Shown here in pieces: positions 43,560-55,804 of a stretch of DNA of 55,853 nt. Every line of letters starts with the position of its first letter. The stretch's first letter is position 1. The stretch covers positions 5,742 through 61,594 of the forward strand of contig JAJYUR010000001.1 of assembly GCA_021792395.1 (NCBI GenBank), read 5' to 3'. The notes beneath the pieces are model-generated. The model searched no databases, was not told where the DNA came from, and was given only the letters and a program-made list of their open reading frames with translations. The DNA comes from Microcaldota archaeon. GTDB lineage: Archaea; Micrarchaeota; Micrarchaeia; Micrarchaeales; Micrarchaeaceae. The translations under genes were made by a program, and so were the position numbers.

Positions 43560-44288
43560 CTAACCCTTAAGCTCTATATAACTCATGGAAACCATCTTGT
43601 TCAGCATCTGCTCGACTCTAGGTATGGTTATTCTGTAGGTCTTTGCGAACTCAGCCAGGTCTATTGTATTGTTATGGGAATCTATCCATTCCTCAATCAT
43701 GACCATAAGGGATTCGTCGGAATACGTCTCAAGCTGCTTTAGCCTCTCTGTAAGTTCGTTATTCTGCGCACTGAGCTCCGTAGCTTGGGCAGTAAGGTTC
43801 TTGTTTGACGATGCAAGCTCTATGTTCAGCCTCTTGAGCTCCCTGTATTCATTGAATAATGAATCATAATTATTGAATAGCGCACTGTAGCTTTGCGATA
43901 GCGAGCCCATCAATTCATCTATCGATGAGTCTACATATTGGTATAATGACACGGGGTCAGGGGAGTAAAGGTCAGCCACAAGCGACAATACAGATAGTAG
44001 GTTCTTGACAACGTAGATGCGCCTCATCTTTTCGCTCGTGTCCAACGCTATTGAGTATTTGACTTCTATTGAGCCTGCATTAAATGTTATTATAAAGAAT
44101 AGGAATGGATTCTTTTGTATGTCCCTGCTTTCCACAGTAAGCAATACGAGGCTGTCGGGATTTATTTTTATGGAGAACATCTGCAGCGTGGAGAACCTGT
44201 TTGCCATTGCGGAAAAATCCCCCAGCAACGTCCCTTTTATGGAAAATTCTGAAATCTTTGGTTCTACAGTTCCTACATTTTCAACCAT
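43560..44288 (-). CDS. Coiled-coil protein with C-terminal winged-helix-like segment
   Basis: 242 aa; YRELKRLNIELASSNKNLTAQATELSAQNNELTERLKQLE coiled coil; IDLAEFAKTYRITIPRVEQMLNKMVSMSYIELKG. Confidence 0.65.
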   Translation of the reverse strand: MVENVGTVEPKISEFSIKGTLLGDFSAMANRFSTLQMFSIKINPDSLVLLTVESRDIQKNPFLFFIITFNAGSIEVKYSIALDTSEKMRRIYVVKNLLSVLSLVADLYSPDPVSLYQYVDSSIDELMGSLSQSYSALFNNYDSLFNEYRELKRLNIELASSNKNLTAQATELSAQNNELTERLKQLETYSDESLMVMIEEWIDSHNNTIDLAEFAKTYRITIPRVEQMLNKMVSMSYIELKG

Positions 44289-44370: not shown

Positions 44371-44757
44371 CTACTTGGCCGCAGCATCGTATTCATGGGG
44401 CAGAGCAAGTGGGGGCATATAGCTCAGCAAAGACATGAAATACAAGAACAGCGTTATTATGACGCCTACGAATATGCCCGTCAGGTTTCCCCGCGAGGTT
44501 ATGGCCAGCATTACAGTAAATATTATTCCAAGCGCGACATACCCGACCTGCTTTCTGATGAAAGATGAGCGCGCCTTGTAGTATTTTTTATAATCGTCTT
44601 TGCAAACCACTAGGGTATAATGCTTCTCGTTTTTGGTCACGTTGCGCTTGAACCATCTTATGCTGTTTATGATATAATCTGCCTTAACAGGTATGCCATT
44701 CTTCTCCTGCCCGCATAGGATGCACCTATAATCTTTGTTCATGTATGCCACTCTCAA
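44371..44757 (-). CDS. Small protein with N-terminal CxxC zinc-ribbon-like motif and two C-terminal TMs
   Basis: 128 aa; CILCGQEKNGIP ... VVCKDD; TM pair. ATGA overlap with upstream gene. Confidence 0.65.
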   Translation of the reverse strand: MRVAYMNKDYRCILCGQEKNGIPVKADYIINSIRWFKRNVTKNEKHYTLVVCKDDYKKYYKARSSFIRKQVGYVALGIIFTVMLAITSRGNLTGIFVGVIITLFLYFMSLLSYMPPLALPHEYDAAAK

Positions 44758-45068
44758 TCGAAGTCTATGATCGCTTCGTATATGCGCCCTGATTCCGATG
44801 CCAGTTTCTGCTCGTCCGCCATGTTGAGAGAGTTGTTTATACTTACATCATCCATCCCGAGCCTCCTTAATATGTTTGATATTGTAGACTTTTGTATGTC
44901 TGATTTCTCAAGCAGGGATATAAACGTGACTATATTTATGTGCCTGTGCGCCTTCTCCATGTCGGAGAACAGCCTTTCCACGTTCTTCTCGTCGACCTTG
45001 TATGCTATCAGTATGCGCCTTAATTCAGGCCTCGTTATTGAATATGATCCGATGTTTTTAGCTGCCAT
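44754..45068 (-). CDS. Small soluble helical protein of T4SS-like block
   Basis: 104 aa ORF tightly packed between ATPase and zinc/TM genes. Confidence 0.6.
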   Translation of the reverse strand: MAAKNIGSYSITRPELRRILIAYKVDEKNVERLFSDMEKAHRHINIVTFISLLEKSDIQKSTISNILRRLGMDDVSINNSLNMADEQKLASESGRIYEAIIDFD

Positions 45069-45069
45069 T

Positions 45070-46584
45070 TCAACTACCTGACGCGGATATTATCCTGGCT
45101 ATCAGTGTGTCCTCTATGCTTATGCTTTTCAGGAACGTTACCAGGTCATTGTTGTTCACTCCGTTCTCTTTCATCAACCTTATAAAATCAAGCATTTTCA
45201 TCGAGCGCTTCTGTGCATCGAGCTGGGCGAATATTGCATTTATTACCTCTGAGGTCACGTTATATTCTATGAACTTGTTCTTTAGTTCATCGCCTTCGAA
45301 TTGGTAGTCGCGCTGCATTATGCCTGCTGAAAGCTCGCTCTGAGTCAGTATATCAGCCATATCCAACGTATATACATAAAGCGGCTCCTCACCTTTGATG
45401 CGCCCGAGTATGAATATCTCTGGAAAATGCTGCGCAGTCTGGAACGCCATATTCACAGCTGCCTGGCCTACCCCGAACTTGCTTATCTCAGACCTTATGA
45501 ACTCGGAGAAGTTCATAGACCCCTGCAGGTAATTCATGAATTTCTCGAACTTTATCCTGAGCATGAACGTGGTGCCCACGTTAGAGAATATAGCCTCGTT
45601 TATATCAGTGGGGTTCTGCGATGCGACTATCAGGCCGAATTGGTATTTTCTTCCTTCCCTGACTATCATTATGGCGTCGCTCTTCTCGTCGCTTGCCACC
45701 TTCCACGCCTCATCCAGCACTACCATCGTCTTTATGCCTTTCGATTCGCTCCAACCCTCTACGCGCATCCTCTCCTTTAGGGTCTGCAATATGAAAAGGG
45801 CTGCAAGGGCGCGGAACCTTTCGTCAGGCAATCCTGACAGGTCTATGTCCACCATTCCTGATTCTGCAATCTTTGACAGGTTCAGTGTGCTTTTCCTGGC
45901 AAAATAGTCCTCGCCTTCGCGCGCAAACTGCCTCAGCCTGTATATTGCATTTTCCAGTTCTGCAGGATATTCATATGTGCCTTCCTGGAGATGCTCCTCG
46001 AGAAGAGATATGGCGTCTTTTATGGTAGGCGCATCTACGTTGTCCGGGGCGCGCTCGGAAAGATTGAACCCCCCGTTGACATACGCCTGTTCAAGTGCTT
46101 CTTCCGTCAGCCTTTTCTGCTCCGGATACATACCTATGTCGGTCAGTATGTCAAATGCAGTGAGTATCTGCTTGACCCTGTCCAATGGCTTCATGCCTGA
46201 AAGGTCCATGATGTTTATGTAGTCTCCCTTGCCGAGCGATACTATGGTGCCACCGCTCTGCTTTACCCATGCCTTGTATTCAGCAGCCCAATCTATTATA
46301 ACCGCATTGGTGCCCCAGACGTAGTTGGCTCGTATCAGAAACGTTTTTACGAAATAGCTTTTGCCTGCGCCTGTTATTCCGACAACAGCTATGTGCGGGT
46401 TTGTGACATTGGCGAATGTCCAGCTGAAAGGCACCTTGAATATCTTCGTATTGCCTATGTATATGCCTTGGAAAGGATCGTTTATCAGCACATTTGACGG
46501 AGGCTCGGGAGGCCTAGAAAGGAAGGCCCTCTTTGCGATCTCGTTGCTCATTATGTGCTGTAATTTCAACAATGTCATATTCAA
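45070..46584 (-). CDS. VirB4/TraC/HerA-type conjugation ATPase
   Basis: 504 aa; VVGITGAGKSYFVKTFLI (Walker A), TMVVLDEAWKVA (Walker B), IVASQNPTDINEAIFSNVGTTFMLRI. Confidence 0.92.
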   Translation of the reverse strand: MNMTLLKLQHIMSNEIAKRAFLSRPPEPPSNVLINDPFQGIYIGNTKIFKVPFSWTFANVTNPHIAVVGITGAGKSYFVKTFLIRANYVWGTNAVIIDWAAEYKAWVKQSGGTIVSLGKGDYINIMDLSGMKPLDRVKQILTAFDILTDIGMYPEQKRLTEEALEQAYVNGGFNLSERAPDNVDAPTIKDAISLLEEHLQEGTYEYPAELENAIYRLRQFAREGEDYFARKSTLNLSKIAESGMVDIDLSGLPDERFRALAALFILQTLKERMRVEGWSESKGIKTMVVLDEAWKVASDEKSDAIMIVREGRKYQFGLIVASQNPTDINEAIFSNVGTTFMLRIKFEKFMNYLQGSMNFSEFIRSEISKFGVGQAAVNMAFQTAQHFPEIFILGRIKGEEPLYVYTLDMADILTQSELSAGIMQRDYQFEGDELKNKFIEYNVTSEVINAIFAQLDAQKRSMKMLDFIRLMKENGVNNNDLVTFLKSISIEDTLIARIISASGS

Positions 46585-46619: not shown

Positions 46620-47450
46620 TCAACTCTGCTGATTGAACTGCGAAGCTTCTTCTGCAAACGATACTGGCAATGCGAAATTAAACTGGAACAGCGTGTAAAG
46701 TTCCCTGCCTACTATCCTTCGCAACTCAAGGTCAAATGCGCTGAATGATACCTGCAGCCGCTTCACCTGCTCTTCCAATGCATCAAACGCAGCTTTCTCG
46801 CTGACACCTATTGCCGTGGTTTCTATATACATAAGCGTAGCTATTGGCTTTTCGCCTTTTGAGATGCGATCTATCTTTGCCTGCACAACATTCATCTTCC
46901 TCTGTATGTCGGTTATAGTGACCTCGTTGGCATTGCCCTGCAGCGCGCGGGACATCTCGAATTCCTGGTAGGAACGCTTGCCTTCGAGTTCATCCCTTAC
47001 GGTCTGTATGTCCATGCCTGACGATATCACATGAAACTTGTATGGGAAGTCGATGTTCATCACAAGACGCTCATATGATTCAGGGGCGAGAATCAGGCGC
47101 TCCTCATCCTCTTCCGGGGCGCTCTCCTCCTTGAATAGGTAGCCAAATATGTTTGCCGTTATATATCCGGTGGCATAGAAGAGCCCGCTTACATTTTTCA
47201 CCACTGCATCCTGCTTCTTAGTTATATAATAATTATTGGCTGGCTGGAATGTGATGCCAAGCATCGATGTAATCCCTGGTATTATGATGGAATCTGCCCA
47301 GTTTAAGGCAAGTATCATCACTACGCCGAAAACCAGTATAAGCACGGCAATGATGGAGTAGAACCCTTTGCCGAATGACGACAGCATGGAAAACGCTATG
47401 AGCATTAGCATAAGCGAAAATATCAGAAATATTGCTCCTTCTTCATCCAT
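46620..47450 (-). CDS. TM-hairpin membrane protein of T4SS-like block
   Basis: 276 aa; two or three N-terminal TMs then soluble alpha/beta region. Confidence 0.65.
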   Translation of the reverse strand: MDEEGAIFLIFSLMLMLIAFSMLSSFGKGFYSIIAVLILVFGVVMILALNWADSIIIPGITSMLGITFQPANNYYITKKQDAVVKNVSGLFYATGYITANIFGYLFKEESAPEEDEERLILAPESYERLVMNIDFPYKFHVISSGMDIQTVRDELEGKRSYQEFEMSRALQGNANEVTITDIQRKMNVVQAKIDRISKGEKPIATLMYIETTAIGVSEKAAFDALEEQVKRLQVSFSAFDLELRRIVGRELYTLFQFNFALPVSFAEEASQFNQQS

Positions 47451-48286
47451 TATATGACCTCTTCCTCAAGATTCTTATTTATCTGCTCCGTAACTGTAGA
47501 GAAGGGTATTAGCGAATCCGGCTCTATGAACTTTTTAAGCTGCATGCCGGTTATTATGCTAGGTGTAATCCCGAATATAGAGCCTATGCCTGACATCAGC
47601 TCCCTTGCCTTTTGCTGGGCTACGCTGACAGCCTCGTATTCCTTGCTGCCTATGCCTGACACCGATGCATAGCTTATAAGCTCAAATGAGAGATCCTTGC
47701 TTATGCTATCCAGAAGGTTCCTCCACATTGCAGTCTTGCCCTTCACCCTTTCAATGGCATCCTTCGATGCATCGGGTTTCTGCTCCAGTTCGGCTTCCTC
47801 ATTTTCTGATAAATTTATAGCATCACGCAATTGCTGTATGTATGAATCCTTGTTCATGACATACATCTGGCTTGTAAACCTGACAGGATCGCGCGCTATC
47901 CCTACAAGCCTGCTCACCTGCCTTGAAAATTCGAGCTTCTGCTCGTCTGGCATCTCAGTAGCTGATAGATACAGAGGTATAGATATGTAGACCGTTGCAA
48001 TGTAATCCTCCTTGCTCCTGTGCAGTATCGAATCGGCAGAAGTAGCCATCCAATATGCGTCCTCCTTGCTTAGTATTATGTGCCTGCTCCTCTGCTTGAA
48101 TATAGGCACCAGCAGATAAGCATAGTATCGCGATGAGAATGCAAGTATGTCTACCATCACCGCCAGGAGAAGCAGTATGAGCTTTCCGAAATATGGCATT
48201 ATAGATACAGGAAGTGCGATGCTTATGATGAGAAGTATTGCAGATATCATAAGGAGCCCAAGGAAATTAATGATTTTATTAGCCAT
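47450..48286 (-). CDS. TM-hairpin membrane protein, possible PrgI/VirB3 + VirB4-N-like module
   Basis: 278 aa; two N-terminal TMs, then soluble region with SRQVSRLVGIARDPVRFTSQMYVM and GITPSIITGMQLKKFIEPDSLIPFSTVTEQIN. Confidence 0.6.
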   Translation of the reverse strand: MANKIINFLGLLMISAILLIISIALPVSIMPYFGKLILLLLAVMVDILAFSSRYYAYLLVPIFKQRSRHIILSKEDAYWMATSADSILHRSKEDYIATVYISIPLYLSATEMPDEQKLEFSRQVSRLVGIARDPVRFTSQMYVMNKDSYIQQLRDAINLSENEEAELEQKPDASKDAIERVKGKTAMWRNLLDSISKDLSFELISYASVSGIGSKEYEAVSVAQQKARELMSGIGSIFGITPSIITGMQLKKFIEPDSLIPFSTVTEQINKNLEEEVI

Positions 48287-48344: not shown

Positions 48345-49535
48345 CTATATGAATCCTCCCCTTATCCTTCCGCCCATCTGCGCAGCTCCGCCGATAAAGT
48401 TGGCAACTTGCACTACGAATGCGTATGTGACAGAAATTATCAATGCAGGATAGAACAATATCAGGAGCCAAAAGCTCTGCATCGACGTATTTATTTCGCT
48501 AAGGACCCCTATGGCAGGGTTTGACGGATTGATTGAGCTGAGCTGCACGCTGGATGTATTGAACCTGTTTAGCAGCAGCGATTCCGCGCTGAGCTGCGAC
48601 ATCAATTGAGGTGCAGTGAAGTAATACGCCACTGAAAACATTATAGGCATGACGAAGTAGAACCCCAATGCAAGCGCTATCATCATCCCTCCCAATGCCC
48701 TTGTTGGTATCATCACCCTGAAGATGACCCCAGGTATCAGGAATACAGGGATAGCTGCCACAGCAAAAAACAGTATCAGGTAGTATTCCGCATAGAGCGC
48801 GAAAATGCCGTCGGCAATGTAGGATGCCAGCACCTGCGCAGGCTCCATGAATAAGAGGAATATTATTTCCTGGGCGCTTTCAATCAGGCTCGTAAGGACC
48901 TTAGTATTTGTGACTGGCGTCGTTATTGATACGCTTATGCTTTTTATGAACGCGTCTGTCATGTAGACGTTGAAGAGCGATGTATAAATATTTTCAGCGG
49001 AGCTTATCGTGCTCGTTATGAGGTGCAGGGATGTCGCAAATGGATTTATAGGACCCACGAATACGGCAGGCACAATGCCGAACATGACCGCGCTTATGTA
49101 CACAAAAAGGCCTATTATCAGCGCGCTTGCAAGGACTTCGTATATTTCGCCGATTCCGAAATTCCTCATCTTTTGGTTTCTCAATGCTGTGCCCACCATG
49201 AATATCATGGATGCGATGAAGAAAGCCAGCAGCAGCACTATAAGAGCCAGGGGCAGATAGTTTAACCACGCGCTGTATACCTGCTCGTTTATGGGGCAGT
49301 ACCATGATTCATTCTTCTCTATGCTATTGGACAGGGCTGACGGCACCAGCGCACATTGCGAGGAGACTGTCGGCGGTGTTGAAGCGCCTCCACCTCCGCC
49401 AGGAATCCTCAATAATACCGGAGTTATAGCGTGCGCTGCAGTTGAAGCATTAGCCGCATGCACCAGCACAATCACCAGCATGGCTGCAGCTGCAAATAAA
49501 AGCACGTTCCTCGCTATTTTTTTTATGCGGATCAT
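48345..49535 (-). CDS. VirB6-like polytopic membrane protein, paralog 1
   Basis: 396 aa; signal-like N-term; shared motif GVIFRVMIPTRALGGMMIALALGFYFVMPIMFSVAYYF. Confidence 0.7.
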   Translation of the reverse strand: MIRIKKIARNVLLFAAAAMLVIVLVHAANASTAAHAITPVLLRIPGGGGGASTPPTVSSQCALVPSALSNSIEKNESWYCPINEQVYSAWLNYLPLALIVLLLAFFIASMIFMVGTALRNQKMRNFGIGEIYEVLASALIIGLFVYISAVMFGIVPAVFVGPINPFATSLHLITSTISSAENIYTSLFNVYMTDAFIKSISVSITTPVTNTKVLTSLIESAQEIIFLLFMEPAQVLASYIADGIFALYAEYYLILFFAVAAIPVFLIPGVIFRVMIPTRALGGMMIALALGFYFVMPIMFSVAYYFTAPQLMSQLSAESLLLNRFNTSSVQLSSINPSNPAIGVLSEINTSMQSFWLLILFYPALIISVTYAFVVQVANFIGGAAQMGGRIRGGFI

Positions 49536-49542
49536 GCGAACA

Positions 49543-52074
49543 CTATATCATTCCGCCCATCATGGACATGAAGTTTATCCTTTCTCCTATTGCTTTTGAA
49601 AAGTCAGCTATAAAAGCGTCTAATATTATGAAATTTATAAAAGGCACGAATGTGAGCCCTGCGACCAGGTAGCCTATGCCCTCTATCATAGGCAGCAGCA
49701 ACGAATAAATTACCTCGCCTGTTGCTGCCCCTGGCGTTATGGATCCCATCAGTAGCGTCGTTAAATTGCCTGATGAGAGCAGGGATAGAAAACCTTGGGA
49801 CTGCATCTGGACATTTATAAAGCCGTATGTTATGCTTGTAAGCAGTGGAAACACTATGCCGAGCCCTAGACCCAATGCTATCAGAATGCCCCCGAACGAC
49901 CTTGTAAATCCCAATACCCTTATCAGCAATCCTATGCTGATAAATACCACTAGGAAAAAGAATGACCCCGATATCAGTATCAGTTGTATGTTGTTTAGCA
50001 TGAGCATGAACAGTATCGCGGAAAATGCTACTGAAAGCCCAGCTTCCAGGCTTTTCGGGAATATGGATTCTATGCCTGCGCTGACCGAGATGCCCATCTG
50101 TCCTGGAACGTGTGCAACGACCTTGATGCCTGGAAGGAATCCGATCACGTATCCCAAATAAAATAAACTGCCAAAATAGCTGAATGCAGTGTTGCTGAAT
50201 GTGCCAACATCGCAAGCCGACATGTTGAAAAGTGTATTTATATCTGTAGCGGAGCAGGTGCTGGGCACCAAGCCTGCGCTGCTGTATGCTGCCTGCGGGT
50301 TCATGAAGAACACGCCTATTACAGATATGAATGCTATGAACAGCACCACTGAAAAGACCGCTTCGTATATCTGGATGCGCGCCCAGTTCTTTGCATTAGA
50401 GCTGCTTATGACGCTCGCAAGCATATATACTATGGCTGCTATCAGTATCACTATAAGCGTGAATATGAATGCAATGGAGAGCCATGTCTCCGGAGCCCCC
50501 AAAAGGCTCTGGTATGCTTTAGGGAGCACGTTTATTGACGCCTCTGCAGATGTGGCAGAGAGCGGAGGGGATGCGCTGTCGGTCACCTTTACGCTATAAT
50601 AGTACAGCCCGAAGGATGTGGAAGACGAAGTGACAAATATGTATTCCGAAGATTCCGCTCCAGTTATGGGAATTTGCGACCCGGAGGTATCGTTGTACCA
50701 TTGGTATGTGTATGGCGGCGTGCCTCCAGTTGCCGATGCTTTGAGCGTTACGCTGCTCCCTTGTGAAATCGCGGTTCCAGATGGCGCTATCGTAGGTGTT
50801 GGAAGTCCATTGACTGTTATAGATATAGGTTTTGAAGTTGATGTAACCGGCGATGATGCAGAATCGGCTACGACTACGTAATAACTGAAGGTGCCCTTAC
50901 CGTTTGCAGTTTCGGTGTATGTCGAAGATGACGATATTTGAATGGGTATATCAGTACCGCTTGTAGAATTATACCATTCATATGTGTATGGCGGCGTGCC
51001 TCCAGATACTGAAGCCGCAAGCGTTATTGTCTGTCCATCATCATATGCCGTGCTTGAAGAGGATATGCTTGGAGAGGATAGGACAGGATTTACGGTTATG
51101 TGCGACGGCCCGATATCCGTTGTCTGGCCCAAGCTGTCAGTCACACTGGCGCAATAGTATGCCGATGCTGCCGGCGATACATATATTGAATTTGCAGTAG
51201 TTGATATGCCCGAATAGGATGCAATAACATTTGTATCGGATGAGCAGCTGGATGATGTACCTGAATAATATGTTATTTCATAATCTGGGATTCCGCCGCC
51301 CCACGATGCCTGCAGTTCTGCGTTTTGGCCTGCATCCAACGTAGCTTTAGACGGCGAAAGAGTTCCAGATATGCTGCTGGCTACGGTATACTGACCTGTG
51401 GAAGACTGTGCGGTTTTGCCTGAGCCGTCTGTCGCTTTAACGTAATAGGAGAACGTGCCTGTAGCAGACGCAGTTGCAGAATATGTTGATGCGGTCTGCC
51501 CAGAAATGGCTGCCGGCGTTCCGGTTGTGTCGTTGTACCATTGATAACTATATGGCGGATTGCCGTTAGAGACGGATGCAGCTATCGATATAGTTTGGCC
51601 TATGCTATATGTATCGGATGTCGGGGATATAGATACGGAAAATGAAGGAGGTGGAGGTGGTGGAGGGGTTGATGTGCAGAACGATTTACCTCCTTTTTGA
51701 ATTCTTCCATTGCTGCCTACGCTACATATCACTATAGTGGAAGCTTCAGGGCAACTGGATGGACATGAACCTACGCATTCGGTAGTGCCGCATTCTGAAA
51801 CAACGCTTCCGCAGCCGCATGTAGGAAGAAACGCAACATCACTTAGATTGCGCATCGCGCTGCCTGTATCATAATTTGAATAGCTTGCCGATACAGATGA
51901 TCTGGCGAAATTAGGAAGGGCGAAGGCGGGATGATAGGTTAATGGAGTTGAGCCTGCCTGAATGGGTGCATGCGAAAGATATGACATATGCAGTATGGAG
52001 AATAGCATAAACAGTAGGAACAGCGCCGCACTGGCAGACTTTTTCATATTCTTTGCGTTCTTTCTTGTTAACAT
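49543..52074 (-). CDS. Surface protein: Cys-rich segment, four Ig/PKD-like repeats, VirB6-like membrane domain (paralog 2)
   Basis: 843 aa; PPPPPPP linker; repeats with GGTPPYTYQWYN; membrane motif GLLIRVLGFTRSFGGILIALGLGLGIVFPLLTSITYGF. Confidence 0.75.
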   Translation of the reverse strand: MLTRKNAKNMKKSASAALFLLFMLFSILHMSYLSHAPIQAGSTPLTYHPAFALPNFARSSVSASYSNYDTGSAMRNLSDVAFLPTCGCGSVVSECGTTECVGSCPSSCPEASTIVICSVGSNGRIQKGGKSFCTSTPPPPPPPSFSVSISPTSDTYSIGQTISIAASVSNGNPPYSYQWYNDTTGTPAAISGQTASTYSATASATGTFSYYVKATDGSGKTAQSSTGQYTVASSISGTLSPSKATLDAGQNAELQASWGGGIPDYEITYYSGTSSSCSSDTNVIASYSGISTTANSIYVSPAASAYYCASVTDSLGQTTDIGPSHITVNPVLSSPSISSSSTAYDDGQTITLAASVSGGTPPYTYEWYNSTSGTDIPIQISSSSTYTETANGKGTFSYYVVVADSASSPVTSTSKPISITVNGLPTPTIAPSGTAISQGSSVTLKASATGGTPPYTYQWYNDTSGSQIPITGAESSEYIFVTSSSTSFGLYYYSVKVTDSASPPLSATSAEASINVLPKAYQSLLGAPETWLSIAFIFTLIVILIAAIVYMLASVISSSNAKNWARIQIYEAVFSVVLFIAFISVIGVFFMNPQAAYSSAGLVPSTCSATDINTLFNMSACDVGTFSNTAFSYFGSLFYLGYVIGFLPGIKVVAHVPGQMGISVSAGIESIFPKSLEAGLSVAFSAILFMLMLNNIQLILISGSFFFLVVFISIGLLIRVLGFTRSFGGILIALGLGLGIVFPLLTSITYGFINVQMQSQGFLSLLSSGNLTTLLMGSITPGAATGEVIYSLLLPMIEGIGYLVAGLTFVPFINFIILDAFIADFSKAIGERINFMSMMGGMI
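50527..51645 (-). repeat. Four tandem Ig/PKD-like domain repeats within the 843-aa protein
   Basis: (S/G)NGNPPYSYQWYND, GGGIPDYEITYYS, GGTPPYTYEWYNS, GGTPPYTYQWYND at ~90-aa spacing; matching DNA tatgtgtatggcggcgtgcctccag at two copies. Confidence 0.8.
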
Positions 52075-52078
52075 GTTT

Positions 52079-53179
52079 TCACACGACCTTGTTCAGCATC
52101 CTACTCGACGTAAGGCTCGACGCGCCAAGGAAGCTGCCTATAGTTTCACTGAAGTCGAATGCGATTATAAGCGATATCGCCACAGCAACCAATGTGAATA
52201 TGGCTGGCGTTATTATATACTCTATGAAATTACTAAGTATCTGCGCCGGAAGTATATCGACAATACTTGCAAAAGTGGATAGGGAGTTCAAAGGATTCAA
52301 TGAAAACGCGGCGCTGCCACCTGACATGATTGCACTTAAAGAGCTAGTGACGCCTGCCGATGTAGATGTTGGGATTGCAACCATATTGGCAGCCAGCAAG
52401 AAGTGCAGGAGCAATGGAAATAGTATGTAGAAGCTTATGAATAGCCCAAGGAACGAGCCGCCCGCCGCCCTCGTCCACGGCATTGTCCTAAGTACTATGC
52501 CTATGAAGAAGAATAGCGGAAAGACCCCATATATTACATAAAGCACGACAATCATCCCAACCATCAGGCCTATGAATCCAGTGCCTACGTTAATTACGAA
52601 TGTTAACACTCTTGATATCACACTAAGGCCGGAGAAGGGGCTTACGCCGAAACCGAAAAAGTTTGGCTCTATTTTTATGTTTATAGATGCAACTAGAGAA
52701 ATGACCTCCTGCTGTACGCCGAAAATTATCAGTGGGCCTACCAGATTCAATGAACTTGCATAAAGCCCTTCACATGCCGAAGAGAACGTCTGCGAGCTTA
52801 TTGGATGATTTGCAGCAGGGAAGAACGCGCTTGGCCCTGATATAGTATTGGAAACAGAAAACGTGCCCAGGAATATGAGCACTATAAGCAATGTTACTGC
52901 TATCTCGCCTATCTCTACTCGGCTGAACCTTGCAAGCTTGTCCAGTTTGAAGGCGTATGACAACGCATATGTTATGCCGGTTATTATGAACATTGTCAGT
53001 ATTATCAGCAGCGCTATGCTTATCATTGCGCCTCCGCCGTCAAAATTTGCAGATACTTGAGAATTGAACGTGCATACAGGCACTGTAGATGCCCCTGCAG
53101 GCGCTGCAAGCTGCAAGAACACCAGTGCTGCAGCTATCAACAAGATGGCCTTGCCTCTTATGATTCTAGCATGCATCAT
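52079..53179 (-). CDS. VirB6-like polytopic membrane protein, paralog 3
   Basis: 366 aa; GIVLRTMPWTRAAGGSFLGLFISFYILFPLLLHF. Confidence 0.7.
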   Translation of the reverse strand: MMHARIIRGKAILLIAAALVFLQLAAPAGASTVPVCTFNSQVSANFDGGGAMISIALLIILTMFIITGITYALSYAFKLDKLARFSRVEIGEIAVTLLIVLIFLGTFSVSNTISGPSAFFPAANHPISSQTFSSACEGLYASSLNLVGPLIIFGVQQEVISLVASINIKIEPNFFGFGVSPFSGLSVISRVLTFVINVGTGFIGLMVGMIVVLYVIYGVFPLFFFIGIVLRTMPWTRAAGGSFLGLFISFYILFPLLLHFLLAANMVAIPTSTSAGVTSSLSAIMSGGSAAFSLNPLNSLSTFASIVDILPAQILSNFIEYIITPAIFTLVAVAISLIIAFDFSETIGSFLGASSLTSSRMLNKVV

Positions 53180-54654
53180 ACCAACCTCGAAAGACCTGCT
53201 AATTGCGTGTCACCGCCCAGCAGTCCGGAAAGTCCTATTATGCCCGTAAGGACTATCAGTATATTAATTATGGGCAGAAAGTATGCCGATACCGATATAA
53301 CGCCGTATTCATCCATGAGAGTGTAAAGGGTATCTGCTGCCGCAGCTGGCGAACAGTATGACGGCAGATAGAATGATTTTATTGGATCGGTTGATATCAC
53401 AGATGATGCAGCGACATTAATCATTGAGGCTATGCTGCTGAACGGTATGAACAGGTAGGCTATGTCCTCAGCTTCAGCCTGTATTAAATTTCCACCTGCA
53501 GGCCAGCATCCGTACGCCTTGCCTGCATATTTTATTTGAGGCATGTCGTAGAAATTGACCACATAGGGATCATAGCTCGATGATATCGAATTGTAAACAG
53601 ATGAAGGGATATATGTTGTGTTCTCGCTTAGCAGCGAATTAAAGCCGTATGCTGACGCTATGCTTATGGTAGAGCTCGAGCTTGCGGTAAGCGCGGAACC
53701 TATGCCGTTGCCTAACGATAGGTATTCTATTGCAAAAACGGACGGATAAAACAGTATAACGCCTATGGCTATAGCTATGAAAAGCCCCCCTATCTTGCGC
53801 GTGAATACAGTCGCCCTGAATATGATGCCTATGAACAGCAGGTATGGCCATACGTAAATGAACATGGCAATGAAATTGAGCTGGACTATGAATGATTCAA
53901 ACGCAAGGTTGAGCACTGAGCCCAATGCTGCAAGCGTCTTGTATATCATGCTTATTCCGCTGTATGGGGTGAAAGAAACGGTGAGAAAGAATAGATTAGG
54001 CAATGGAATAGGACCCAAGCACTGCACAAAATCAGGGTTGCCGCAGTACCTTATCGTTGGAGACACTGTTTCCAGGAATCCGAGGAATGCATCGTATACG
54101 AAGAAGCTGTTCATGTTGTTTGCGGTCTGGTTAGTCATGTTTGCTACTATTACTCCTGACGCCGCCAGGGGATAGTCGACCATCTCCGTCAAAGATGAAG
54201 GGGAGTTTACAAGGCTGCACAGTCCAGGGAAAGCAGCTGAAGATGAACTGCTCTGGACCAACAGCGATGCGGAATGCGAAGTCACCGAATGCGAAGGATT
54301 CAGTATGCCCAGCTGCGAATGTGCAGCTATGCTGTTGCACAGCGAGTATATGGATGAGCTGCTCATGAGCGACGTTGAATTCAGCCCGTTGTAGAATATG
54401 ACGCCGAAGGTTGTTATGACGAATATGATTATGCTTATCAGGACTATAGTGCCGACGAACTGGTAGAATTCGTTCTTTGCCGCTTCCCTTGCACCTGGGT
54501 TCTGCAGCAGTGTGGCAGCCATATACCAAACACCTATTATCACAGAATCGAAAAGCAGGGCCATGAATGCCAAAGGTATCAGGTCTGACTTCACGTTGCT
54601 GAAGGACGGCAACTGAAGTATTATTCTCCCAATGCTCAATATGTCAAACATCAT
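53176..54654 (-). CDS. VirB6-like polytopic membrane protein, paralog 4
   Basis: GIIFRATVFTRKIGGLFIAIAIGVILFYPSVFAIEYL; start moved from 54738 to ATG at 54654 (MMFDILSIG), after a GAGGT ribosome-binding-like site, removing overlap with the upstream gene. Confidence 0.7.
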   Translation of the reverse strand: MMFDILSIGRIILQLPSFSNVKSDLIPLAFMALLFDSVIIGVWYMAATLLQNPGAREAAKNEFYQFVGTIVLISIIIFVITTFGVIFYNGLNSTSLMSSSSIYSLCNSIAAHSQLGILNPSHSVTSHSASLLVQSSSSSAAFPGLCSLVNSPSSLTEMVDYPLAASGVIVANMTNQTANNMNSFFVYDAFLGFLETVSPTIRYCGNPDFVQCLGPIPLPNLFFLTVSFTPYSGISMIYKTLAALGSVLNLAFESFIVQLNFIAMFIYVWPYLLFIGIIFRATVFTRKIGGLFIAIAIGVILFYPSVFAIEYLSLGNGIGSALTASSSSTISIASAYGFNSLLSENTTYIPSSVYNSISSSYDPYVVNFYDMPQIKYAGKAYGCWPAGGNLIQAEAEDIAYLFIPFSSIASMINVAASSVISTDPIKSFYLPSYCSPAAAADTLYTLMDEYGVISVSAYFLPIINILIVLTGIIGLSGLLGGDTQLAGLSRLV

Positions 54655-54661
54655 ACCAACC

Positions 54662-55804
54662 TCATATGCTGCCCCAGAATGACCCTGCGCCTTCCACGCC
54701 TGAATTGAGCCCTTTCGCCAGACCCATTGCGAACCCAATCGTTACCGTTATGTCTATGCCGAACATGAATATTGCAGTGAATATGAATTGCGATATCTCA
54801 GTTATCGAAGATTGTGCGCTGCTTATCACGTATGATGGGTCGAACTGCGCGCCCAAATCGCTGAAATACGTACTGCCTATGAGTGAGCTTATTGCCGGAG
54901 TAGTAATGCCATCGAACGTTACGCCTTGGCTCGATACCGAATTGAAGAAGGATGATGGCAGATTGTTCAGCGAATATGCAGTGCTTATACAGCCTGTACA
55001 TCCGTACAGAGGATTGTTTCCGCTGAATATCCAGTGTATCGCATATGCATTGAAGGCTATCATCAGCGGATATACAAGATATGCTGCAATGGCTATCGCC
55101 AGGAATGCATTGGCGGTCGTGCGCAGTCCAGAACCGGTAAGCGATATCGAGCGCAGGACTAGCGCTATGGGCAATACGACTACAAAAGCTGTAAATTCTA
55201 TGAGCGGCAGCGATATGTACTGCAGGAATAATGCACCGATAGCCATTATGGTGAATGGCGCAAATAGATCAAAATATACATCCGAAAGGCTGCCATACGC
55301 GGCACCGAAATCCTGCCCGATGACAATGTCTACGCCCACGACCGATGCATTGCCAAGATGGGCCAATGGAGATACTTCTCCGATGTCAGTAAGCACCCTG
55401 GCGTCTATAGCATACGTCACTGATGTGCTGTATATGTTACCGAGGAGCTTAAGCCCTGTATTCATTGCCAGATTCCCTATGTAGAAATCAGCATACTGGA
55501 ATGGCGACAGGGACGTACCAACAAGCGTTTGGCTTAGCGAAGATGTTATATTGCACGTAAGCTGCGACATCCCCAAGAGTATCAGTATTATGACTATGCT
55601 GAGCATCAGCTGGGTCATGTCCACCTTCAATAGGCTAGACACCTTCGATTTTGTTGCGCCAGGGAAGAACCTGCTGAGCATGTACAGGAATGCAAGGATA
55701 GAAAATGATGCAGCTATGACCAGGTAGTTTATGCTGAGCCAGCTATTTACGTATGTCGACCCGCCAAACAATGCGCACCCGTTTATGATCAAAACAAACA
55801 CCAA
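54662..55804 (-). CDS. VirB6-like polytopic membrane protein, divergent paralog 5
   Basis: 380 aa; LVLRSISLTGSGLRTTANAFLAIAIAAYLVYPLMIAFNAY. Confidence 0.65.
   Translation of the reverse strand: MVFVLIINGCALFGGSTYVNSWLSINYLVIAASFSILAFLYMLSRFFPGATKSKVSSLLKVDMTQLMLSIVIILILLGMSQLTCNITSSLSQTLVGTSLSPFQYADFYIGNLAMNTGLKLLGNIYSTSVTYAIDARVLTDIGEVSPLAHLGNASVVGVDIVIGQDFGAAYGSLSDVYFDLFAPFTIMAIGALFLQYISLPLIEFTAFVVVLPIALVLRSISLTGSGLRTTANAFLAIAIAAYLVYPLMIAFNAYAIHWIFSGNNPLYGCTGCISTAYSLNNLPSSFFNSVSSQGVTFDGITTPAISSLIGSTYFSDLGAQFDPSYVISSAQSSITEISQFIFTAIFMFGIDITVTIGFAMGLAKGLNSGVEGAGSFWGSI

Follow-up and report, generated by a model that had tools for sequence, protein, structure and literature searches.

The VirB6-like genes at the end of the window, the 55,853-nucleotide stretch of micrarchaeal DNA analysed here, belong to a tandem array of six homologous genes whose number and order were the same in every complete array that we sampled across Micrarchaeota. 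We consider it probable that this array encodes the heteromeric six-paralog VirB6 base of a chromosomal, vertically inherited (domesticated) T4SS-like machine of the Ced/Ted kind, with DNA as its likely cargo. What is new here is that the arrays have six members, that this number is constant, that the gene order is inherited and that the block was duplicated whole; our literature search, with subscription journals and preprints mostly outside it, found such VirB6 arrays described neither in Micrarchaeota nor in other archaea. The in-depth searches covered one phylum, Micrarchaeota.

The original prediction described five adjacent paralogs. All five open reading frames (ORFs) are present on the minus strand, and they are indeed adjacent and homologous, but the count is six, as a further paralog, f, lies past an assembly gap at the window edge (Table 1). 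This run of N (L005:9596-9695) begins right after the last base of the window, 55853, and since the same 108 bp flank it on both sides as an exact repeat, its flanks probably represent overlapping sequence, which would make the gap an artefact of scaffolding. Each of the five window paralogs has 6-8 hydrophobic segments according to a simple hydropathy script. The ORF of paralog b overlaps that of a by 77 nt, and the true start of b may be further in. The extracellular parts of the paralogs vary strongly in length. Judged by ortholog lengths, the Ig-like extension of paralog d is found in the window's genus and orthologs elsewhere are shorter; the extension suggests a contact role, and recalls the giant Ig-like VirB4 fusion in nanohaloarchaea (PMC10266531). 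Elsewhere, other paralogs carry large unannotated insertions, and forms of 750-1,140 aa occur.

Table 1. The VirB6-like array, its motifs and the genes of the adjoining operon (positions in the window, except for paralog f).
Feature	Position	Strand	Evidence or remark
VirB6-like paralog a	54662-55804	-	Array position 2; motif variant without TRxxGG; ORF and profile match to the other five families (probability 96.2-99.0)
Motif variant in a	55109-55153	-	RSISLTGSGLRTTAN
VirB6-like paralog b	53176-54738	-	Array position 3; motif RATVFTRKIGG; ORF and family profile match
RxxxxTRxxGG motif in b	53785-53817	-	RATVFTRKIGG
VirB6-like paralog c	52079-53179	-	Array position 4; weak CedA (NF041796) match
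RxxxxTRxxGG motif in c	52457-52489	-	In the model, break between two helices, probably cytoplasm-facing
VirB6-like paralog d	49543-52074	-	Array position 5; N-terminal Ig-like repeats; ORF and family profile match
Ig-like repeat region within d	50515-51612	-	Residues ~155-520; Ig_3, SprB and other Ig-like Pfam matches
RxxxxTRxxGG motif in d	49888-49920	-	
VirB6-like paralog e	48345-49535	-	Array position 6; motif RVMIPTRALGG; ORF and family profile match
RxxxxTRxxGG motif in e	48687-48719	-	RVMIPTRALGG
Sixth VirB6-like paralog, f	L005:9771-11036	-	Immediately past the N gap at the window's end
Paralog of 46620-47450: N-terminal hydrophobic hairpin and soluble domain	47450-48286	-	HHalign to the 46620-47450 family 97.4, E 1e-11; kept beside VirB4 in the order
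N-terminal TM hairpin and VirB4 N-terminal-domain-like domain	46620-47450	-	AlphaFold pLDDT 80.8
VirB4/CedB/CedD/HerA-like ATPase	45070-46584	-	Pfam DUF87, AAA_10, TraG
Small conserved operon gene	44754-45068	-	Syntenic in the order
Small protein, N-terminal cysteines and two hydrophobic segments	44371-44757	-	Conserved in the operon
Soluble coiled-coil protein	43560-44288	-	ZapB-like coiled-coil match just below cut-off; syntenic in the operon
Membrane-anchored protein, 785 aa	41048-43405	-	At the operon's end; conserved in many relatives

Ortholog families for the six positions were built from the loci of about 40 relatives and compared as profiles, all against all. Every one of the 15 pairs proved homologous (HHalign probability 96.2-99.7, E <= 2.3e-9), as against a maximum of 47 and medians <= 0.5 for reversed or locally shuffled partners, and the unrelated membrane-protein family Y254 scored <= 3.2 with the six. 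The predicted paralogy therefore holds for every pair. Single-sequence comparison connects only part of the paralog pairs, and the relationship is therefore old.

The near-identical motif that had been noticed in four proteins was located as RxxxxTRxxGG in b, c, d and e. Among 848 ORFs longer than 150 aa in the order-level loci, RxxxxxRxxGG occurs in 170, and because 166 of these carriers fall in families f, b, c, d and e, the motif is beyond chance. It is missing from family a, both in the order-level loci (0/36) and in the phylum-wide arrays (0/58), the sole family for which this is so. Together with the pentameric state of R388 VirB6 and DotA (PMC9259494, PMC12857230), this absence would suit an arrangement in which the TRxxGG paralogs f, b, c, d and e form a heteropentamer and a is an accessory protein or plug outside the ring. 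We regard such an arrangement as unlikely, since a shares the core and is present in every complete array; moreover, an alignment of 18 cores shows two arginines and a proline that never vary in any of the six families; a has them too, with four residues inserted between the motif arginines. Nor is the division into five and one clean, because position f outside the window's order often departs from the exact GG motif (present in only 3 of 22 sequences). Over 36 arrays, the motif R, R and P are 98-100% conserved across all six positions, a glycine 92% and a glutamate of the first inter-helix loop 88%. The positive-inside rule and the paralog c model would put the motif where a helix is interrupted, facing the cytoplasm; pairing of the conserved glutamate with the arginines is conceivable, either where subunits touch or at the ATPase.

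In a tree of 224 cores, the sequences cluster by array position, with 12 changes of position label compared with a mean of 147.8 and a minimum of 136 in 200 label shuffles; the locus label gave no grouping. Between 12 and 26 changes remain when the motif region is left out or used by itself, and in five column bootstraps. Single deep clades hold less well than this overall position signal; for instance, the clade that unites all 36 a sequences in the main tree (support 0.917) falls apart in column bootstraps. In families with two arrays, a concatenated tree recovers two kinds of six-gene array, each broadly tracking genome relationships. Taken together, the position tree and the concatenated tree indicate that the six paralogs are older than the lineage splits, and that the whole block was duplicated later and kept entire. 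Duplication as the origin of the array is thus borne out by profile homology, fixed order and copying of the block. The description of paralog a as degenerate was mistaken: in the main tree the 36 position-2 sequences fall in one clade, a retains the two arginines and the proline, and it is an ancient family in its own right. An array of five paralogs, one of them decayed, is ruled out by the sixth gene, the tree by position and the conserved residues.

Across Micrarchaeota, all 58 complete arrays consisted of exactly six genes, co-directional and in an unchanged order, in a sample that was picked for long flanks and includes several arrays from the same genera or genome, so that these are not 58 independent events; overlap of genes in this count was judged on the core domain. 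Four shorter arrays (L109, L110, L132 and L165) are truncated where the contig or the retrieved stretch stops, and a single VirB6-like gene stands at eight loci of the same collection. In the window's order, Micrarchaeales, the locus runs pilin, Y254, f, a, b, c, d, e, 47450, 46620, VirB4 and four more genes, and complete or near-complete genomes have six VirB6-like genes, or six plus one single gene; one genome of the order, G026, has its six-gene array apart from VirB4. Whole-genome searches of ten genomes outside the order, in which clusters were counted by hand from ORF positions and 20 loci were inspected, again gave clusters of six. Nine of these genomes have two complete clusters, the tenth has one complete cluster and one apparently broken by contig ends, and six of the ten have an extra single VirB6-like gene. 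Two complete six-gene arrays are found in most families examined outside the order; in some families of the phylum there is a single VirB6-like gene alone, or none was detected. The counts behind this last result scored up to 12 candidates per genome (in all but one genome) in a class-wide search and up to 18 in another; as one gene may give split matches, their totals for genomes with two arrays are approximate, and the cluster numbers given above come from the hand-counted clusters, the inspected loci and the collected arrays.

Further arrangements were seen in the same material. Genome G051, of the order Micrarchaeales, has at least 18 VirB6-like matches, possibly more than two arrays. A second kind of six-gene array (L191, L193, L194, L197, L199 and L201) is followed by a protein of 1,150-1,640 aa; in L191, L193, L197 and L201, whose proteins were inspected, it is rich in cysteines and begins with a lipoprotein-like signal, and the two of these proteins tested had no Pfam match. 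On contig C41 of the same genome as the window, a second T4SS-like locus (L006:6879-14543) has one VirB6-like gene alongside genes for a pilin-like protein, a 46620-like protein and two ATPases, one of them VirB4-like. Lone VirB6 genes of the L006 type group in a separate clade (7/8).

The strong differences in extracellular length, the Ig-like extension in one genus and the forms of 750-1,140 aa would also suit a set of alternative subunits, in which every paralog would form a separate homomeric channel and the cell would alternate between these, for instance per partner or as surface variants. This we find distinctly improbable, as the genes are close-set, partly overlapping and in one direction, no member was gained or lost in the 58 arrays and block duplication retained six, whereas switchable variants tend to vary in number. 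That all six were kept after block duplication speaks for a joint requirement, with the member of one block no stand-in for that of the other. The constancy of six could nevertheless stem from inheritance and essentiality without one shared ring.

The relation of the array proteins to named families is remote. None of the 18 core sequences matched PF04610 (VirB6/TrbL) at E <= 1, a Pfam search with the alignment of these cores (A1) found no T4SS family, and PDB sequence searches with A1 and a second alignment (A2) returned no relevant chain. CedA (NF041796) was the sole NCBIfam family matched by A2 members (6/38 at E <= 0.01, best 2.6e-7), the matching members being c-type and single-type sequences, and it was matched by 2 of the 18 A1 members as well, so that both alignments point to a remote sequence relationship with the CedA family, the named family closest in sequence. 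Paralog c of the window itself matched CedA at 5.3e-4 with 19.6 bits, which does not reach the family cut-off of 330, and a CedA search in its own genome gave 5.1e-7. An AlphaFold model was made of c, the sole array paralog modelled (pLDDT 75.3), and its first-ranked PDB fold match, R388 TrwI/VirB6, was non-significant (E 0.15, prob 0.84, TM 0.28-0.34); TrwI chains stood at ranks 1, 4 and 18 with E 0.15-1.2, prob 0.84, 0.72 and 0.28 and TM 0.26-0.34. Within the order, these polytopic membrane proteins are encoded together with pilin-like, VirB4 N-terminal-domain-like and VirB4-like genes. The earlier label VirB6-like is therefore favoured by the weak CedA matches (6/38), the top-ranked though non-significant TrwI fold match and gene context, and weakened by the lack of a PF04610 match and by the low TM-score of the fold match; that the proteins are true VirB6/CedA relatives is supported, not proven. 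The remote resemblances to CedA, TrwI and VirB4, none of them proof alone, make a T4SS reading likely when taken together with the operon.

The array sits beside VirB4 in the window's order and in family f7. The ATPase (45070-46584) matched the NCBIfam families CedD (7.6e-20) and CedB (9.1e-19), both below cut-offs, and the VirB4/HerA-like ATPase typical of Ced and Ted is thus present. As this protein starts at the nucleotide-binding core and has no VirB4 N-terminal domain, the VirB4 N-terminal part seems to be encoded as separate proteins. For the model of the 46620-47450 protein, five of the six top PDB matches were R388 TrwK/VirB4 chains (best prob 0.97, rmsd 4.7, E 0.08-0.24), and the 47450-48286 protein is probably VirB4 N-terminal-domain-like too; these data support, short of proof, the assignment of both as VirB4 N-terminal domains. 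Past the sixth paralog lie the membrane protein Y254 and then two small hairpin proteins resembling VirB2 pilins. The pilin-like family is conserved upstream, and its hairpin matched family a with a probability of 86 and the other families with 0.3-44, weak for most; the match to family a echoes the CedA-CedA1 relationship (PMC9905601). Elsewhere in the phylum, f7 excepted, arrays outside the order usually stand apart from VirB4, and a partnership with VirB4 is therefore assumed there.

Conjugation-like parts near the window's end could in principle belong to an integrated mobile conjugative element, and potential conjugative elements have been described in the micrarchaeon Mia14 (PMC5498576). 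We hold this to be very improbable. The VirB4-like ATPase was found at graded similarity in 56 of 60 relatives, including all 39 of high quality, and the operon keeps one gene order within Micrarchaeales; the array tree tracks genome relationships, and the neighbours are chromosomal housekeeping genes. Distribution, synteny and the concatenated tree thus disfavour a mobile-element origin. Almost all relatives identified through the VirB4-like gene carry a Micrarchaeota label, Micrarchaeum sp. A_DKE and a Mancarchaeum among them. Four loci (L037, L042, L065 and L087) were deposited as Marsarchaeota, though their nearest relatives are Micrarchaeota.

Among known systems, Ced and Ted are reduced archaeal relatives of T4SSs, and Ced transfers DNA between cells (PMC9905601, PMC11868833). 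Both Ced (Sulfolobales: CedA/CedE, CedA1, CedB/CedD) and Ted (Thermoproteales: TedA, TedC, TedB) are, like the Micrarchaeota system, chromosomal and archaeal, and combine a VirB6-like membrane protein with a VirB4/HerA-like ATPase; they also have a VirB2-like pilin, to which the small hairpin proteins of the Micrarchaeota locus may correspond. In Ced, too, the ATPase N-terminal domains are shared out between proteins, CedB and CedD (PMC11868833), but in Micrarchaeota the VirB4 N-terminal-domain-like parts are proteins apart from the ATPase; and where one CedA or TedA is described, plus one CedE paralog in Saccharolobus, each Micrarchaeota array has six such genes, and there are up to two arrays. 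The nearest known analogue is the rvh T4SS of Rickettsiales, with four to five tandem virB6 genes beside virB4 (PMC2653234, PMC7648143), an arrangement also seen in the window's order and in family f7. It is likewise kept in symbionts and pathogens with reduced genomes, and some of its VirB6 proteins have large extra domains. The rvh system is, however, bacterial, spans two membranes and differs in copy number (4-5) between families, whereas complete Micrarchaeota arrays always have six genes, duplicated as a unit. Its VirB6 proteins match PF04610 and the Micrarchaeota paralogs do not, so the resemblance is one of gene arrangement, not of membership. The T4SS of Patescibacteria is also lineage-wide, of monoderm type and found in small epibiotic cells; in the part of that report available to us, VirB6 homologs are given for part of the classes and a six-gene array was not seen (PMC12102498).

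These comparisons bear on how the base might be built. In R388, a VirB6 pentamer is the base for proposed VirB2 pilin assembly, above a hexamer of VirB4 dimers (PMC9259494), and known VirB6 assemblies are homopentamers (PMC9259494, PMC12857230). R388 VirB6/TrwI, the top-ranked if low-scoring fold match of paralog c, forms a membrane-embedded base, as the array proteins are proposed to do, but is the product of one gene, whereas Micrarchaeota have six different genes. In the machine that we propose, six ancient VirB6/CedA paralogs, older than the sampled Micrarchaeota lineage splits, would form one heteromeric membrane base, and all six would be kept because each holds its own place in it. The VirB4-like ATPase would dock via the two separate N-terminal-domain proteins with their membrane hairpins, and would drive VirB2-like pilins and/or cargo through the base. 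More tentatively, the VirB6 layer may be an asymmetric heterohexamer with six fixed positions on a six-fold VirB4 motor, which would leave no five-to-six mismatch, and many of these archaea may carry two such machines. Of the hetero-oligomeric channel in the original prediction, a single channel is probable, given the fixed number and order and the block duplication; physical co-assembly of all six in one ring, like DNA as cargo and the direction of transport, is what we infer.

The cargo would most likely be DNA, passing between the micrarchaeon and either its host or its kin, because the nearest named relatives are Ced proteins. Transfer to or from a host archaeon is consistent with the DPANN lifestyle. 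That lifestyle, and the fusion of Ig-like adhesion domains to one component, would also suit a machine for symbiosis or parasitism that carries proteins or other molecules into the host cell or out of it, with no DNA exchange, as would the nanohaloarchaeal giant Ig-like protein fused to a VirB4-like ATPase, for which effector delivery has been proposed (PMC10266531). A VirD4-type coupling protein was absent in 20 of 21 relatives, with one borderline match among the 21 genomes, which is in keeping with a cargo other than DNA. This absence is not decisive, since the Ced/Ted component lists (PMC9905601) are also without VirD4, and the nearest named matches, CedA, CedB and CedD, are DNA-import proteins; we therefore rate a cargo other than DNA as possible, if somewhat doubtful.

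The way in which a VirB6 pentamer is matched to a hexameric VirB4 is still an open point in the mechanics of conjugation. A lineage with six fixed VirB6 subunits, duplicated as a unit, makes both subunit placement and a six-fold ring testable. Our findings also suggest that a transfer machine is widespread and vertically inherited in a symbiotic phylum with hardly any cultures, and make that machine a candidate route of exchange with host archaea.
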